From: Phaeodactylum tricornutum CCAP 1055/1 | Taxonomy: Eukaryota > Bacillariophyta > Bacillariophyceae > Surirellales > Neidiaceae | DNA: 64,000 nucleotides | Direction: 5' to 3' | Assembly: GCF_000150955.2 (NCBI RefSeq) | Contig: NC_011669.1 | Coordinates: 1,007,667 to 1,071,666 of the forward strand | Shown: positions 25,857 through 56,049 of the stretch, piece by piece | How the letters are laid out: the number at the start of each line of letters is the position of its first letter | How positions within the stretch are numbered: position 1 is the stretch's first letter | The notes under the pieces: generated by a model | What the model saw: the letters and a program-made list of their open reading frames with translations, nothing else | The model's database searches: none | Told to the model about the DNA's origin: nothing | Translations under genes and position numbers: made by a program

Positions 25857-27770
25857 TCAAGTCATGACTAGGTCGGGAAGGGTTCCCTCGTCCGCCGTGT
25901 GGTTGGATTCTGCTAGAGATGCTCTCTGTTTATGGTCCGAATAGCCATCTCGAGTATTGGTGGTGGCCAAAGAGATTCCATCCTTTTCGTTCTCGTCGTC
26001 AAGAACCAAACCGTCTTCGTCGTCGTCCAACGGTAGCCGGTACCGTTCCCGCCGTCGAAAGCCCGATCTCGTCAGCAAACACACCGTCCCAACGGACCCC
26101 ACCGCGGCACTCCCCACCAGCAGCATCAACAAGGCCAGAAAGCCTCCAGGACTCGTCACGACACGTACGGCCTGGTTCACGGTCTCCGCCACCGCATCCG
26201 CCGTGGGATACCGTAGTCGACAGTCCCAGTCGGGTGTCGCAAACGGTTCGACGTGATCCAGCAGAACCTGAATATCGCAAAGCTCGGCGTCGTCGGGACA
26301 GTCGTCCATACGGGACGTCAAAACTTGACCGTTGTACACCAATCGAAAGGCGTAGTCGGACGGGTACCGCGTCCGATTGGCGACCCCGTCTAGATTGATG
26401 GCGTGCACTTCCAGGACGAGCAAACTCGCGTACGGCGCCCAGATTCCATCCCACACGTGCGGACCCAGCGACGCCAGCATTGGCATGATGGTCGTGTCGT
26501 GACCCGAGTACAGTGCCAGCTTCGCTGGGGGACGGACCGGACAGCACACGGTCGCTTCCCCGTGGACGATGCCCCGGACGACCGACACGACTTCGTGCCA
26601 CAGTGGTTGCATCCCGAGCTTGGCGTACTCGGCATCGTTGGCCCCGTACACCATCGTGTAGGATTGGACATCCCAGTCGTACAATCGTTGGAACAAATCG
26701 ACGCCGTACTCGGAAGTTTCGCGCCGCACGTGATCGCGCGGTGCGTCGTGGAGTGCCCCGGTCCGACGCGTCGGATCGGTGCCACGGTAATCGTTCACGG
26801 CGTCGGGCAAATCCCGATCCGTGCACATTGTTGTCATCAAACAATCCACCGCCATCATGTCTCCCTCAATCCGCAGCACGTCTCGCATAAAGCGCCGGAG
26901 TAGGAGCGTTTCGGCCGACCGTTCCACGGCCCGGTACGCATTGGACGCGGCGAAGCGTTGGCGGAGTTCGGCCAAACGCGGACACACGGCTTCGTTGGGA
27001 TCCAGGACGTCCCGTGCACGATCCGCAGTGTGCAAGGGAATGACGGGGTAGGAACCGTGTGTGTCGACGTGCGCGCGTATTTCGGGACCCAACAGGCCGC
27101 GCAACAAGACTTGACCGGACATGAGGGTGCGTTGGTCATCGTCGGCACGGTACCACAGATTCGTATCCGACCAGGGCACCGCTGCAGTCGTGACGTCCAA
27201 CAGGCGCATGCGGGGATCGTGATTTTCGCGCGACGCGTCGTACACGTAGGCGTCCCGCAAATGCTGGCCGTTGGTGAGTTCCTGTGCGTATCCTCGAAGC
27301 AAGAGCTGTCCAAGTTGACAGGTTCCGTTGAAATAGTTGGAGAGACCGTGTTCCGGATGCTGCAAGGCGTCGTAGCGTTTTTCGAAAAGAAACGTGGCGT
27401 TCGGGTCGTTGCTGGATGCGGCTGTGCCGTCGGTGGATGGTGGCGGAGCCAGGTAGGTGGTCAAATCGCAATCCCAGACCCCCGTCTCCTTGCTGGCGGC
27501 GTATCCTTCCCAACAGTTGAGTCCAGATGTCCAGGGCGTCCGAGCCCCGTGACGGATAATGACCGACGCGTGCTCCAATCGCGATTCGCCGAAGGATTGG
27601 TCGGCATTTGCGAGAGGCGGAATCGTCCGCAGCGCCATTTGCGAGGGTGTGGAACAATACGGGGGATAGAAAGGATATTTTTGGTACCAATCATCGGGAC
27701 TGTTGGATCGTTGAGCCTTACATAGTATCGGTAGTATGCAAAGGACGAGAAACCGCAAAGAATGCGGCAT
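25857..27770 (-). CDS. Histidine acid phosphatase, membrane-anchored
   Basis: About 637 residues from the ATG at 27770, which begins a clean signal peptide (M-P-H-S-L-R-F-L-V-L-C-I-L); the frame to 27902 adds a leader that does not look like a signal. The catalytic R-H-G-A-R-T-P (about residue 75) and the distal Y-S-G-H-D-T-T (about 410) are the branch-2 histidine phosphatase signatures, which form a phospho-His intermediate. The family includes phytases, MINPP, glucose-1-phosphatases and 2-phosphoxylose phosphatase. A C-terminal transmembrane helix (about 550-575, leucine-rich with Gly/Val) follows. The protein should sit with its enzyme domain in the lumen or outside the cell. It is head to head with the inositol-phosphate synthase fusion. 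Substrate not determinable. Confidence 0.85.
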   Translation of the reverse strand: MPHSLRFLVLCILPILCKAQRSNSPDDWYQKYPFYPPYCSTPSQMALRTIPPLANADQSFGESRLEHASVIIRHGARTPWTSGLNCWEGYAASKETGVWDCDLTTYLAPPPSTDGTAASSNDPNATFLFEKRYDALQHPEHGLSNYFNGTCQLGQLLLRGYAQELTNGQHLRDAYVYDASRENHDPRMRLLDVTTAAVPWSDTNLWYRADDDQRTLMSGQVLLRGLLGPEIRAHVDTHGSYPVIPLHTADRARDVLDPNEAVCPRLAELRQRFAASNAYRAVERSAETLLLRRFMRDVLRIEGDMMAVDCLMTTMCTDRDLPDAVNDYRGTDPTRRTGALHDAPRDHVRRETSEYGVDLFQRLYDWDVQSYTMVYGANDAEYAKLGMQPLWHEVVSVVRGIVHGEATVCCPVRPPAKLALYSGHDTTIMPMLASLGPHVWDGIWAPYASLLVLEVHAINLDGVANRTRYPSDYAFRLVYNGQVLTSRMDDCPDDAELCDIQVLLDHVEPFATPDWDCRLRYPTADAVAETVNQAVRVVTSPGGFLALLMLLVGSAAVGSVGTVCLLTRSGFRRRERYRLPLDDDEDGLVLDDENEKDGISLATTNTRDGYSDHKQRASLAESNHTADEGTLPDLVMT

Positions 27771-28269: not shown

Positions 28270-31200
28270 ATGAAGCCGTCGGGTTCACCATTGGCGGGTC
28301 AAGCTCGCTCCAGTCCCCGCAACGGTACTCCTTCGTTCGTTCGTGATCGGACACAACAACAACAACAACGCCTTGTTAGTAGCAATACGCCAGGATCAGC
28401 GTCTCGGGATGCCTGGAACGAGGCGTCGTCGGTGACGAGCGACGGGGCATCCTCGGCCGTTTCGGTGACGAGCAGCTACCGACACCACCACGGTGGACCC
28501 TTCATGTCACCACAATCGTATCCTGTGCCACAGACACCCCTACCGGTCCTCGTCAAGGATGCGCAACACAAACCCAAAACTCTCGGAAGTTTCGGTGTCC
28601 TCGTCGTGGGGTTGGGTGGGGCCAACGGTACGACCATGCTCGCCGGTGTACTGGCCAACCGACTGGGCAGGCACTGGTACGGACCAAAGGGGGAACCCAT
28701 GACACCGAACTATTACGGATGCATTACCCAATTGCAACAAAAGGGAGTGCACGGCGGAGTGGGCTACAAGGATCGAGTTAAAGGGCTCGCCGATGCCTCC
28801 ATGGCTGCCATTGGAGGATGGGTACGTTCCGTGTTCCGTATGCAGGCGGGGAACCTGTCGCTGTCTACTGGTTTGTGCGTTGCTGCTTTGATCTACGCTA
28901 TATTGGTACCGCTCACTCAATGCAGTTTTTTACTTGCTGTGCTCGTTCGTTTCTCTGTCTCTCTCTCTTTGCTACTCGCTTTCTAGGATATACGTCCCAC
29001 TCCACCGGGCGATGCCTTGTTGGCGGCACAAATTCTGGATTACGATCTGGTCCGCCAAATGAAGGACGAAATGAACAAAACCAAAGTATTCCGGGCCGTG
29101 TACGATCACCGTTTTATTGGAACATCACAACACACCACCGCCACACACGTACTGACCAAGGAAGAAGCACCGAACGATGCTGAAGCTCTCAAATGCTTGC
29201 GTGCCGATATCCGGTACTTCAAGTGGCGTAACGGCGTGGTCGGTCACACGACCGTCATATGGAGCGCCAGTGTGGAACCCAACTGTGAATTACTCGAACA
29301 CTACTCGGCGGCCAAGGATTTACTGGACGCCATTGACTTGACGGAAGACGAACGTGGTGGTCCGCTACCACCGTCCATCTTGTACGCCACGGCGGCACTG
29401 TTGGAAGGGTGTTCCTTCATCAACGGTGGCAGTCAGAATACCTTGGCTTGTCCCGGTCTGAACGATTTGGCCCGACAACAGTTGGGCGTGTACTGTCTGG
29501 GCACGGATTTCAAAGCGGGCCAAACCAAATTCAAGACAGCGGCGGTGGAGTACATTCGAACCATGGGACTCAAACCGAAAGTGATTGCCTCCTCTAACCA
29601 TCTTGGCAACAATGATATGCGCAATTTGTCTACCGCCAAGACGGCGGCCAGCGCCAAACTTCGAGTCAAACACGATATCTTTTCAGCCTGGCAAGAAGAC
29701 GACCTGGACCACAAAGTAAGCATTATGTTTACGGAATTTATCAACGACGAAAAGCGAGACTTTGTCGAGTACACCAGCCTCGGATTTTTGGGACAAACGC
29801 ATACCATGGTGACGTACACCAGGGCGTCCGATTCCGTTTTGTGTGTGCCGCTCATGTTGGATGGTGCAGTGTGGTGTGATTACTTCTCGTCGCGAAGCTG
29901 GCCCTACGAAAAAGTGTCCAAGGCTCTCGCGTATCTCTTCAAGGTACCGGAAGGTTCCGCCAAAGGCGTTGACCCTGGCTTTTTTCGACAAATGCAAGAG
30001 TTGGAGACGCAAGTGTTGGCCGCGCATCAAGCCAAGGTTGGTAAGAAGCCGGAACAGAGCTCGGCGAAGAAACGCGTCCGTATCCGTCCGGAGGAAAAGA
30101 CCACCGAGTGGGCCATTCCGCACGATGCTCGAATCGTTTGCGCTGGTTTAGCCTGCGTTGACATGCAGCTCAACCAAGCCAGTGGTGGAGACGGAGGAGA
30201 GAATATTGAGAGTTTTGAGGGAGAACACAGTATTGGTGGTGGGAGCGTAGCAATGGCTTGCAAGACATTGGCCAGACTGTGTCACGGAGCCCCGCTAGAC
30301 GATGGCTACATGCAAGTGACACCTCCGGTAGTCCATTCTGTGGTGCCCCTATGTAAAATCGGTAAAGACAGCACTGGTGATAAACTTATTTCTCTGCTGG
30401 AGTACTGCGGCGACACTTGTCGAAATGTGGAAACCAAGTACATCAAAACGGCTCGGGAAAAGGATCCGCACGCCCGGACGGCGCTGTCGGTGTTGCCCAT
30501 ATACAAAGACGGACGGCGAGGATGCTTCTTTGATGCCGCTTCGAACTCGACCTTCTCCGCCCGGGAAGTGGTCGAGATGATAGGAAGTCTTTCCTCAGGA
30601 TCGTCGGGACCTGTGCTAGATACATCACACATGTCGTTCGATGACATTGAAAACTACCACGCTGACTTGGAGCAGATGACCCCGATCTACGGAGCCTTTT
30701 TGTTCGGCTATCCGCATTTGCTTCCCAAAATTCAGGGCGAGGCACTCGCCCAAACGTTACTGGAAGCAAGAAGCAACATGATTGAAGGAGGTATTACCGT
30801 ACTTGATTTGAACGGCGTCCCAGAAACCACATTCCGTATGACAAATTCGTTGCGGTCGGTGACGGATCTGAGAAACGATCCGGTCATTGGTGCGGCCCTC
30901 GAGCACGTGGATATTCTGCACCTCAACGAAGACGAACTCGCGTTGCTGACCGGGTGCACGATTCGAGGCACGCCCGGAACGCAATCGGAGGATGACTACG
31001 CTATTGCTAGCGCCGTGAATCTTTTTCTGTCGTGCGGCGTAGCAGTGGTAGCCGTGACGCGGGGACGCAAGGGTAGTTTTGTCAGTTGCAACGATCGCGA
31101 ACGTTTCCGCCGGAGTCCCACGCTCCCGACCTCTTGGATTGACGGTACGGCCCATATTGGTGCGGTGGAACTCGCTCCTTCGGCGTCAATCAATGGCAAC

Positions 31201-31821
31201 GGGGCTGGCGATGCGTTCACTTCGGGTTTGCTGGTGGCCGCCATGCTGCGCCATACGGGCATGACCGTCCCGCCGCCGCCGCGGGCCCACAGCGGTACAG
31301 GATCCCCGGCCGTGTCGAAGCACTCGCACGAGCGTGCGGGATTTTCGGGGCCTTCCAGTCCTTCACCGAAAGCGAAAAAGAAACTGACACCGTACACTCT
31401 GTACATGCGAGAAAACTACGTGACGTTGAAGAAGCAATGCCAGGACGACAAGAAAGCGATCTTTACAATGTGCCACGAACTGTGGGAAAACGAGTCCGCC
31501 GAGGTCAAGACGTTGTACGATCGGCGCGCGAGTGAAGAGAACGACGCGAACGAGCAAAGTGATTCCACGACGGTACTTGACGCGATGGAAACATTCGATT
31601 CCATCCGCCTCGACACGTCCCACCAAAGCTCGGTGGACGAAGGCGTACCGCGCAATCTCTACATGACCAACCGATCGTTGAATCTGGAATCGGCCGTACA
31701 ATTCGCGAGTCTCGTGGCGGCGTACCACATTGACGCCAGTACGAGAGATCGCGCCCACATTGATGTGAGTCAACTGATTGAACGAGCCATGGTGTTTCCA
31801 TCCGGTCTGGAGGAAATTTAA
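28270..31821 (+). CDS. Inositol-3-phosphate synthase fused to PfkB-family kinase with HMG-box-like insert
   Basis: Exons 28270-28821 and 28987-31821; the 165 bp intron (GTACGT...CTAG) joins G-G-W to D-I-R-P, restoring a conserved INO1 block. The 1128-residue product has a Ser/Gln-rich leader (1-100), then full INO1: glycine motif G-L-G-G-A-N-G-T-T (114-122), [11 protein letters not shown] and N-H-L-G-N-N-D with downstream catalytic Lys. INO1 converts glucose-6-phosphate to myo-inositol-3-phosphate using NAD. A short basic linker leads to a PfkB sugar-kinase domain from about 564, with G-G-G-S-V-A, H-L-N-E-D-E and N-G-N-G-A-G-D-A-F (about 921, catalytic Asp). Between this and the last kinase helices lies an insert (about 935-1070) with an HMG-box-like stretch. 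The fusion is seen in one uninterrupted exon. Confidence 0.9.
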
Positions 31822-32928: not shown

Positions 32929-34184
32929 ATGCCTCCGTCCAAGAAGGAAATGATGGATGTGGAATTGGCCCAACCGCTCGTACACCACAAGCACGGTGAT
33001 TACTCCGACAGTACCCACAATCCGCCATCGCACCCTCCGGCCAACCACAATGCCGTCGTCAAACACGGGGGTGGTCTCATGTCCCCCAGCAACGTCAAGG
33101 CCGTCACAGCCTGCACTCTCTACAGCTTTTGCAGTGTCAGTATGATTCTGGTCAATAAGAGTCTCGCCAGTAGGTACGTACCCAACGACGGATGTGTGTT
33201 TGTGTAGAAGTGTGCTACGATTGGAACTGTTCCAATTGGAAACACCGTGTGTCTATTGGTTTGGTCCGTTTCAGAGGCAGAAAACAAACGTGGACTCACC
33301 CGCTCTTGTTACTTTTATTCCGAATCTGTAGTTACGGGCACTTGTACCAAGGTGACTTGAACGTTCTCCTCGTTGTCTTTCAAGCCGTCACGGCGGTCGT
33401 GTGCGTCGAGATCTGCCGCAAAGCCGGCTGGGTGGAATACCCTCCCCTGACCTGGGCCGTGGCCAAGTCCTGGGCTCCCGTCAATATCTTTTTCTGTCTC
33501 ATGCTCTTCACCGGCATGGCGTCGTTGCAATTCAACTCTGTACCCATGGTTACCGTCTTCAAGAACGTTACCAACATCCTCACCACCGCCGGAGACTACG
33601 TTTGTTTCGGAGCACGGCCGGAAGGACTGGTTTACGTCGCCTTTGGGGTCATGCTTTCGGGTGCCGTTGCCGCCGCCTGGAACGACGTGGAAATCACTCT
33701 CGTTGGTCTCTTTTGGATGGCCATGAACTGCGTCGCCACCTGCGGATACGTGCTCTACATGAAATTCGCTACCCAGTCCGTCAAAATGTCCAAATTCGGC
33801 ATGGTCTACGTGAATAACGTACTCTGTATCGTATTTTTGTTGCCCGCCGCCTACGCGCTCGGACAAGTGGACATGTTCTGGAACACACCGGATTTGCACA
33901 CGATAGATTACGGCATTAAGAACTTTTGGGCCGGCTTTGTCGGATTCTTTTTGAATTTCGCCTCGCTCAACTGCGTCCAAACCACCGGACCCACCACGTA
34001 CGCCATTGTCGGATCACTCAACAAGGTACCCGTTGCCATGCTCGGGTTCTTTCTCTTTGACAACGTCATTACTCCACAAACGTGGTTCTTTATTGGTGTC
34101 AGTATGTGCGGAGGATTCCTCTACAGTTTTGCCAAGATTTTCGGAGGCCGGCCGAAGGTAACGGCCCGTCAAGATTCCGAGTAA
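32929..34184 (+). CDS. Nucleotide-sugar transporter, GDP-mannose type (VRG4-like)
   Basis: Exons 32929-33173 and 33332-34184 with a 158 bp GTACGT-TAG intron; splicing gives N-K-S-L-A-S-S-Y-G. The 365-residue protein has about nine or ten hydrophobic helices of the drug/metabolite-transporter fold. The helix-10 stretch G-S-L-N-K-V-P-V-A (about 307) corresponds to the G-A-L-N-K GDP-mannose-binding motif of yeast Vrg4 and plant GONST1. V-N-N near 240 may stand for the second, F-Y-N-N motif. These proteins exchange GDP-mannose for GMP across the Golgi membrane, feeding glycan synthesis. The frame before 32929 begins only with TTG, so 32929 is the first ATG. GDP-fucose is a possible alternative substrate. 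Confidence 0.85.
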
Positions 34185-36940: not shown

Positions 36941-37012
36941 TCCGATATGATGTAGGTGGTTAGCATACTTGCCTTTCACGCAGGATACCCGGGTTCGAGT
37001 CCCGGTATCGGA
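36941..37012 (+). tRNA. tRNA-Glu (anticodon UUC)
   Basis: 72 nt. The acceptor stem tccgata pairs with tatcgga; the anticodon stem cttgc/gcagg closes a loop ctttcac with anticodon ttc; the T arm has ggttcgagtcc. A T-run after the gene serves as the Pol III terminator. CCA is not encoded, as expected for a nuclear tRNA. Identical to the gene at 44697-44768 on the other strand. Confidence 0.95.
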
Positions 37013-37201
37013 ACACTTCTTTTTGTCATCTGCAACTTGCCTTTTCGTTAATGTAAAGTTCTAGTGCATTGCTCTTGAGAAGAATAGTGGAGAGAAGTTT
37101 CGCTGACTTGGGTCGTTCAGGTCGGTAGCGGTCGACGTGTATCGATGCATCATCATACAAGGCTGCTAATGTAAGTATATCGTGCCCTATCGTTTAAAAT
37201 C

Positions 37202-44452: not shown

Positions 44453-44696
44453 AATTGCATTCGGCTTCGCTATGGGGTGCGAGGCCTTGACTGTGAATAA
44501 ACGGTCACGTTCGCTATGGTTTATGTTTGAAGGAGTTTAATGTCATGTGACGCAAAAACTAGGGGCGCCTATTGGAACGAGAACGAATAGACACAGTAAT
44601 CAATGTTTCAACGTAAAGATCAGTGTTTATGATAGCGTATGGTTGAAAGATGGCGCGATGACAGATCATTCATAGTGAGTCTATAGAAAAAAGTGT

Positions 44697-44768
44697 TCCG
44701 ATACCGGGACTCGAACCCGGGTATCCTGCGTGAAAGGCAAGTATGCTAACCACCTACATCATATCGGA
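44697..44768 (-). tRNA. tRNA-Glu (anticodon UUC)
   Basis: Identical in all 72 positions to the tRNA at 36941, in the opposite orientation. Both copies are followed by acactt and a T-run, showing shared terminator sequence, whereas the upstream flanks differ. Confidence 0.95.
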
Positions 44769-54188: not shown

Positions 54189-56049
54189 ATGTCGTCGTTG
54201 AATTCCATACCCGCGTCGTCCAGCGTTTCCGATTTGTTGTCGTCGCAACGCTTTCGTCCGCCACCGAACATTGACAACCCCATGCCACATCGCTTGCCGG
54301 AAGGGGAAAACGCCGCTCCTCTCGAAGTCACCGGCACCACCGCCTCGGACAAGATGGTCATTGTCATGGTCGGACTCCCCGCCACCGGTACGTGGGACAA
54401 GAGCGATACACAATCACACATGCACACCCCCTGTACTCACAATCACGTAAATGCACACTCTGACCAAACGCTTTCTCGGCAACGTCACGTCACGATATAT
54501 ATACACACACTTGCATATACTAATCAACTACCATATAGGCAAAACCCACATTGCCAAACGCATTTGTCGTTTCTTGTCCTTTTTTCACGACATTCCTTCG
54601 CAAATATTCAACGTCGGTGACTATCGTCGCCAGTTGTGCGGCGCGCAAATGCCGGCCGATTTCTACGATCCCTCCAACGAGGCTGGACAGTTGGCGCGCC
54701 ACCAGGCCTGCGACGCTGCTCTGGCCGACCTCCTCGAGTACATGAAGCAGGACGGAGTGCGCGTCGCCGCCTTTGACGCCACCAATTCGACCAAAGCCCG
54801 ACGATCCCATATACTGCAGGTGCTCAAAGCCAGTGGACTGGGATGCAAACGCATGTTTGTCGAAAGTGTCTGTGATCACGAAGCGCTCTTGGAAGAGAAT
54901 ATACGGAAAGTCAAACTCTCCACGCCAGATTATCGTGATATGGACCCCGAACAGGCCATGCGAGATTTCAAAACACGACGAGGTACGTACCGACCGTCGT
55001 GATCTTTGCACGACACTGCCGAACACACTTCTTTGGGACTCACCCTCGTGTTGCGGCCGGGGGTTTTAGAAAATTACATGCGCGTCTACGAACCCGTCGA
55101 CGAAACCGACGGACCGCACATTAAAATCATCAACAGCAAACAATTCATTGTCACCAACATTCGCGGTTATTTGCCGCTCAAGGTTGTGCACTATGTCATG
55201 AACCTGCACACGCTGCCGCGCACCTTTTACTTGACCCGTCACGGACAATCCGAATACAATTTGTTGGGCAAGATTGGCGGTGATTCCGGACTGACACCCG
55301 CCGGTTTGGAGTACGCGCGTCGACTGGCGCAATTTGCCCAAACGCACATTGGTTCGCAAACCGTCACGAACGAAACCACGGGTGAATCCGCCACGGTCCC
55401 GCGGCCGGCCCGTCTCTGGACGAGTACGCTACGACGTACTTTGGAAACGGCCCAATTCATCAACCACGAGGCGCTGCAACACACGTGGGACAACGGCGAC
55501 AGCGCCGAATGGCTCCAGTTCCGTCCCATGGCGCGCCGCAATTTGGACGAACTGTACGCTGGAACCTGCGATGGCATGACGTACAAGGAAATTGAACAGG
55601 TCTATCCGGAAGAGTTTGCCCGTCGGCAGGACGACAAATTGTCGTATCGTTATCCCCGCGGAGAGTCGTACATGGACGTGACGCTGCGACTGGAACCGCT
55701 TGCGCAAGAAATGGAACGCACCCGGGAACCCGTCCTGATTGTCGGTCACCAGGGTATTTTGCGAATTTTGTACGCGTACTTTATGGGACTAGACCGCAAC
55801 GAAGCGCCGTACGTGTCCATTCCACTGAACAACGTAATTGAGTTGACCCCACACGCGTACGGATGTCACGAAAAACGGTTCTGCCTGATGCGCAAGGAAG
55901 AAATGTTGAACGATGGACAAGACGAACCGGTCACGAGCATGCCGGTGAAGACGAACGGCGGCACGTCTCACCGGGAGCCGGGTGCCAGTACCGTCAGGCC
56001 AGCGTATTACGCCGCCAACGATCCGGTCATGAATGCACCCAGTTGTTAA
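54189..56049 (+). CDS. PFKFB: 6-phosphofructo-2-kinase / fructose-2,6-bisphosphatase
   Basis: Exons 54189-54387, 54539-54982 and 55070-56049; introns of 151 and 87 bp (GTACGT donors, TATAG and TTTAG acceptors). The first intron splits the P-loop G-L-P-A-T-G-K-T. The kinase part (about 55-260) makes fructose-2,6-bisphosphate; it has G-D-Y-R-R and F-Y-D. The phosphatase part is a histidine-phosphatase domain with T-R-H-G-Q-S-E-Y-N (about 271) and G-H-Q-G-I-L-R (about 439), giving the opposite reaction. The product regulates glycolysis/gluconeogenesis. No plastid or mitochondrial signal, so cytosolic. The N-terminal ~55 residues are Ser/Pro-rich, a likely regulatory extension. Total 540 residues. 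Confidence 0.9.

Follow-up and report, generated by a model that had tools for sequence, protein, structure and literature searches.

A two-exon gene joining INO1 to a PfkB-family kinase

The gene described here is located on the + strand at positions 28270-31821 of the window (the whole stretch of Phaeodactylum tricornutum DNA analyzed, 64,000 nucleotides). It starts with an ATG at 28270, ends with a TAA stop codon whose last base is 31821, and encodes a product of 1128 amino acids from two exons (28270-28821 and 28987-31821). The initial annotation had given the same span, from ATG to stop, but as a single exon; instead, the NAD-binding start of the inositol-3-phosphate synthase (INO1) domain sits in exon 1, ahead of a 165-base GT-AG intron (28822-28986, + strand, GTACGT...CTAG) that carries an in-frame TAG at its end. 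We infer the intron from these splice signals and from the INO1 reading, which would continue as GGW/DI across the junction. Exon 1 encodes a low-complexity leader (aa 1-108) and the beginning of INO1, with the GLGGANG NAD-binding loop and the YYGCITQ and GGW sequences (PF07994, 4.1e-12). Exon 2, identified by its open frame of 944 codons and its Pfam matches, comprises the remainder of INO1, a linker, a PfkB kinase split by an insert, and the TAA.

Within the 944-codon frame, the INO1 domain (aa 109-524; 28594-30006, + strand, spanning the intron) is followed in the same frame by the PfkB kinase, with no stop codon between the two halves. The last conserved residues of INO1 and the first strand of the kinase are approximately 38 codons apart; the stretch between the domains (aa 525-562; 30007-30120, + strand) is a basic, stop-free linker. 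Codon bias favors this frame over the two others in the kinase part (0.087 versus -0.136 and -0.165) and in the insert (0.169 versus -0.134 and -0.023), and also in the tail, and does so weakly in the short linker (0.05 versus -0.334 and 0.035); the training set included the INO1 core, and the measure is therefore no test for that region. Two separate genes were considered and rejected, as no stop lies between the halves. At the sequence level, then, the INO1-PfkB fusion proposed in the initial annotation is real, with PF07994 and PF01658 followed by PF00294 in one open frame of continuing codon bias.

The INO1 half and its shortened active-site loop

Exon 2 matches both INO1 profiles well above their cut-offs (PF07994, 2.8e-38, 132.6 bits, cut-off 25; PF01658, 3.3e-21, 75.9 bits, cut-off 27), and a phmmer comparison with human INO1 gave 7.8e-41. 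Searches with the INO1 half returned 39 plasmid records and at least 547 relatives on genome contigs, the best 80 of which were kept, and nothing among viral contigs. For the tree, 85 prokaryotic INO1 frames (those of 5 plasmid loci together with the 80 best of the at least 547 confirmed genome-contig relatives) were combined with only two eukaryotic references, human and yeast. The INO1 half groups with human and yeast with a support of 1.0, on a branch (1.459) that is the longest of the 88 tips. Identities are correspondingly low: 103/280 to human (37%) and 99/289 to yeast, compared to 166/277 between human and yeast over the same columns. At yeast positions 327 and 355 the protein carries the human/yeast residues, where 69/85 and 83/85 of the prokaryotic frames, respectively, have others. 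A bacterial INO1 half was rejected on the basis of this tree, with its two eukaryotic references, and of the eukaryotic-type residues at these two positions, and we class the domain by these comparisons as a diverged INO1 of eukaryotic type. With eukaryotic INO1/MIPS proteins (human 9m53, yeast 1jkf, C. elegans 1vko) it shares PF07994, PF01658, the GNND and GQTK residues and most of the active-site residues, but it is far more diverged, has a broken K-x-x-x-K stretch and carries an added C-terminal kinase.

The break is found in the sequence KTAASAK (aa 402-408; 29638-29658, + strand), a shortened active-site loop at the K-x-x-x-K site, as judged from the alignment with the 85 prokaryotic frames, human and yeast. 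The column of yeast K369 holds a lysine in 85/85 prokaryotic INO1s and in both human and yeast, and an alanine (Ala404) here. K408 aligns with yeast K373; the loop is three residues shorter, and the nearest upstream lysine lies six residues before the K373 match rather than four. Other active-site positions are kept and identical in the alignment (yeast numbers D320, K322, N354, D356, K373, D410, and K412). A further lysine, near what we take to be yeast K489, is kept as K503 and is invariant in the INO1 alignment. INO1 had been annotated as complete, which holds for its extent, with the reservation that one active-site lysine is missing.

In the parts of the rice INO1 paper drawn on here, the K-x-x-x-K stretch is described as conserved throughout and essential, and yeast K369 as touching both the substrate and NADH and helping to stabilize charge at O5 (PMC5614600). 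Deletion of the first lysine alone left approximately 70% of the activity of the rice enzyme and loss of both left approximately 14%, whereas an earlier yeast study cited there found such lysine mutants inactive (PMC5614600). The loss of K369 places INO1 activity of the present protein in some doubt. To judge from its position in the loop, K402, close by, might act as a stand-in for K369.

The kinase half and its HMG-box-like insert

The main part of the kinase (aa 563-942; 30121-31260, + strand; PF00294, 54.0 bits, and a ribokinase fold match) belongs to the PfkB (ribokinase) family, with PF00294 matching at 3.8e-13 in exon 2 and at 4.7e-14 in the kinase half alone (52.9-54.0 bits, cut-off 25.8). 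The landmarks of the family are kept, including VD (D576), GGGSVA, the N-x-x-E motif in the form NEDE (N831-E834) and GAGD (aa 923-926, with D926); the GGGSVA and NGNGAGDAF motifs named in the initial annotation were both located, at aa 601 and aa 920. The Pfam match, GAGD, N-x-x-E, the GGG substrate-side loop and the fold are thus common to this protein and to ribokinase, YdjH and fructokinase, from which it differs by NGNGAGD in place of DT-x-GAGD, the usual form in the family, and by a 138-residue insert ahead of the last helices. As the GAGD base and the N-x-x-E magnesium motif are intact, the kinase half is probably active.

A shallow ten-sequence alignment underlies the structure model of the kinase, which is weak (mean pLDDT 51, pTM 0.53); bacterial kinases alone as query gave 0 loci with one alignment and 15 loci with another, these 15 being used only for the structure alignment. 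A fold search with this model returned 950 PDB matches, 227 of them at E ≤ 0.001, the best being 3h49 (5.3e-14). Among the 50 matches listed of these 950, TM-scores on the target were 0.58-0.67, and ribokinases formed the majority, alongside fructokinases, YdjH, and sulfofructose, pseudouridine and deoxygluconate kinases. The top family models were ribokinase (30.8 bits, cut-off 299.65) and 5-dehydro-2-deoxygluconokinase, IolC (28.7 bits, cut-off 300), while two bacterial ribokinases run as controls on the ribokinase model scored 341.6 and 305.6 bits. The best single PDB sequences were ribokinases and adenosine kinases at E 0.015-0.067. No subfamily cut-off was reached among the family models and no clade stands out; the kinase is accordingly described here as having a predicted ribokinase-like fold of no particular clade. 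A PPi-dependent kinase was also considered; the basic residues of Thermotoga TM0415 seem, as far as can be judged unaligned, to lack a clear counterpart next to NGNGAGD.

The myo-inositol kinase reading proposed in the initial annotation gained no support, without being refuted: the family models stay far below their cut-offs, the 50 fold matches listed out of 950 include no Thermococcus myo-inositol kinase (4XF7) and no Thermotoga TM0415 (1VK4), and the 60 profile matches listed out of 119 include no inositol kinase. The Thermococcus enzyme, a member of the same superfamily, contacts inositol through D12, G26, Q136, R140, and D219 in the part of its description used here (PMC5931981). Of these, D12 and D219 would be matched by D576 and D926, and no Q-x3-R is seen in the loop at aa 755-765, where we would place the corresponding site by reasoning rather than by alignment to 4XF7. 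TM0415 belongs to the same superfamily as well.

The Pfam match of the uncut kinase half stops after GAGD, and the kinase chain resumes 138 residues further on. When these residues (aa 943-1080; 31261-31674, + strand) are removed, the PfkB match improves from 54.0 to 64.6 bits and reaches profile position 289, whereas a control with a reversed tail scored 54.3 bits and stopped at position 269. The kinase is therefore whole but interrupted, within the loop that precedes its last helices (aa 1081-1128; 31675-31818, + strand); it had been annotated as a complete PfkB kinase, and indeed all parts are present, although they are not contiguous. The alternative that the 138 residues form a C-terminal extension was rejected on the same scores (64.6 bits without the insert versus 54.3 bits for the reversed tail).

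Inside the insert, aa 981-1036 (31375-31542, + strand) match the HMG-box profile PF00505 at 27.8 bits (cut-off 25.4). The match exceeds the cut-off in short segments (27.8 bits in 70 aa, 27.2 bits in 79 aa) and falls below it in longer contexts (24.4 bits in 198 aa, 22.4 bits in 566 aa, 21.6 bits in 944 aa); it was found in 0/8 shuffles. No PDB sequence matched the segment, and its single-sequence model, which retrieved 0 fold matches, shows one long helix (15-75) where an HMG box has three. The likeness to known HMG boxes lies in the profile match of the cut-out segment, and the differences in its position inside a kinase domain, its score below cut-off in the whole protein, and the three-helix L-shape that is not seen in the single-sequence model. 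We consider it probable from the profile match that the insert holds a diverged HMG box.

Prokaryotic relatives of the kinase half appear to be remote. Searches of viral contigs (15 pattern matches, 121 with an alignment) and of genome contigs (30 pattern matches) yielded none that could be confirmed. Among plasmids one record was found (23.8% identity, E 2e-3), in a sugar isomerase-aldolase-kinase cluster, and among phages one record (E 0.04). Matches were present in 2/10 genomes (best E 0.164), and a scan of 198 genomes of one phylum, run without a positive control, gave 0 matches.

Possible roles of the fused protein

Fusions of metabolic enzymes are already known in diatoms, where three pairs of successive steps have been described (TIM-GAPDH, UGP/PGM and G6PDH/6PGDH; PMC2173943), and multifunctional metabolic proteins are known in oomycetes (PMC2705460). 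The present protein resembles those presented in these sources in having two metabolic enzyme domains in one frame with a short linker, but, were its kinase an inositol kinase, the two would carry out parallel reactions, unlike the successive steps joined in the diatom pairs of PMC2173943. An INO1-PfkB fusion is absent from those three pairs and from table 2 of PMC2705460, and we did not find one in the open-licence literature; within that literature the pairing is apparently new, though it may already be annotated elsewhere.

Bacterial gene order does not support a general link between INO1 and such kinases. Within the flanking sequence examined, which was 8 kb at most and often shorter, PfkB-like frames were detected at 2/80 genome-contig INO1 loci and at 0/5 plasmid INO1 loci, and none was part of the INO1 frame itself. 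In two annotated bacterial loci phospholipid genes adjoin INO1.

Our leading proposal, which we hold tentatively and at slightly less than even probability, is that one chain combines a diverged INO1 with a kinase of the ribokinase family split by an HMG-box-like insert, and that the parts work as follows. The INO1 part would still bind NAD and glucose 6-phosphate and make inositol 3-phosphate, possibly at a reduced rate. The kinase part would use ATP to phosphorylate a small polyol or sugar of the branch from glucose 6-phosphate to inositol phosphate, with myo-inositol, inositol 3-phosphate and a sugar as candidate acceptors. The fusion would hold the two activities at a fixed ratio and place, and the basic insert may position the enzyme by binding to DNA, RNA or a partner protein.

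The kinase could be a myo-inositol 3-kinase of the Lpa3 type, with both halves yielding inositol monophosphate, from glucose 6-phosphate and from salvaged inositol, respectively. This would be in line with the plant myo-inositol kinase, which is a PfkB-family enzyme, and with the divergently transcribed neighbor, which belongs to the histidine acid phosphatase family (PF00328, 3.3e-18). Inositol kinases of the ribokinase family do exist, and the Thermococcus one phosphorylates the 3-OH to give inositol 3-phosphate, the product that INO1 makes (PMC5931981). However, neither set of listed matches (50 of 950 by fold, 60 of 119 by profile) includes such an enzyme, the expected Q-x3-R is not seen at aa 755-765, and the two reactions would be parallel where the diatom fusions named in PMC2173943 join successive steps; we therefore consider this reading unlikely. 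A similarly low probability is given to a kinase whose substrate is a nucleoside or a sugar, such as fructose, ribose or some other hexose or pentose, either feeding the substrate pool of INO1 or unrelated to it. The ribokinase and IolC models at the top of the family scores, the ribokinases that make up most of the 50 listed fold matches, the ribokinases and adenosine kinases that head the PDB sequence matches (E 0.015-0.067) and the sugar cluster around the plasmid relative all point in this direction, but the scores are very weak next to the 305-342 bits of the ribokinase controls and do not select a clade.

It is also conceivable, though again improbable, that the INO1 half is enzymatically dead and serves as a sensor of NAD or glucose 6-phosphate or as an oligomerizing scaffold for the kinase, with another INO1 gene making inositol. 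The alanine at the otherwise invariant K369 (85/85, human and yeast), the loop shortened by three residues and the longest branch of the 88 tips are consistent with this, as are the contacts of yeast K369 with substrate and NADH (PMC5614600). Against it, the remaining active-site residues that were checked are kept, K503 included, K402 might substitute, and the rice enzyme lacking the matching lysine remained approximately 70% active, falling to approximately 14% only when both were lost (PMC5614600). Very unlikely, in our view, is an artefact in which two genes were joined by an assembly error, or in which splicing or polyadenylation within the linker escaped notice: the fusion is known here from one genomic sequence alone, but the 944 codons are free of stops, linker included, the halves lie in frame approximately 38 codons apart, and the codon bias continues.

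Returning to the proposed two-enzyme chain with its HMG-box-like insert, its production as one polypeptide would name a partner of INO1 and thereby offer a clue to the wiring of inositol phosphates in this lineage. Metabolic enzymes that carry a nucleic-acid-binding module are rare, and a kinase interrupted by an HMG-box-like segment would be one of them; the lost K369 allows one to ask which lysine INO1 truly needs. A more far-reaching and highly improbable version is that the chain makes inositol 3-phosphate and that its own kinase re-phosphorylates this product, or adjacent free inositol, in a channelled, lipid-independent route to higher inositol phosphates, with the insert tying the enzyme to chromatin; it would then sit where higher inositol phosphates would act.

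Several other genes were identified in the window. The histidine acid phosphatase-family gene mentioned above (25857-27770, - strand) diverges from the fusion gene at a distance of approximately 500 bases; it contains RHGARTP and SGHDTT motifs, has prostatic acid phosphatase as its best PDB match (8.9e-6), and by eye resembles a signal peptide at its start and a membrane helix at its end. As the histidine acid phosphatase family includes phytases, a link of this neighbor to inositol supply is possible. The next gene downstream, on the same strand as the fusion, belongs to the triose-phosphate transporter family (33174-34181, + strand; PF03151, 1.3e-11). Further away, a frame at 55003-56046 (+ strand) has a partial 6-phosphofructo-2-kinase match (PF01591, 2.1e-7) followed by a branch 1 histidine phosphatase domain (PF00300, 9.8e-32), and may be the final portion of a PFK-2/FBPase-2 gene with two domains. 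Two tRNA-Glu (TTC) genes are present on opposite strands, at 36941-37014 and 44695-44768.
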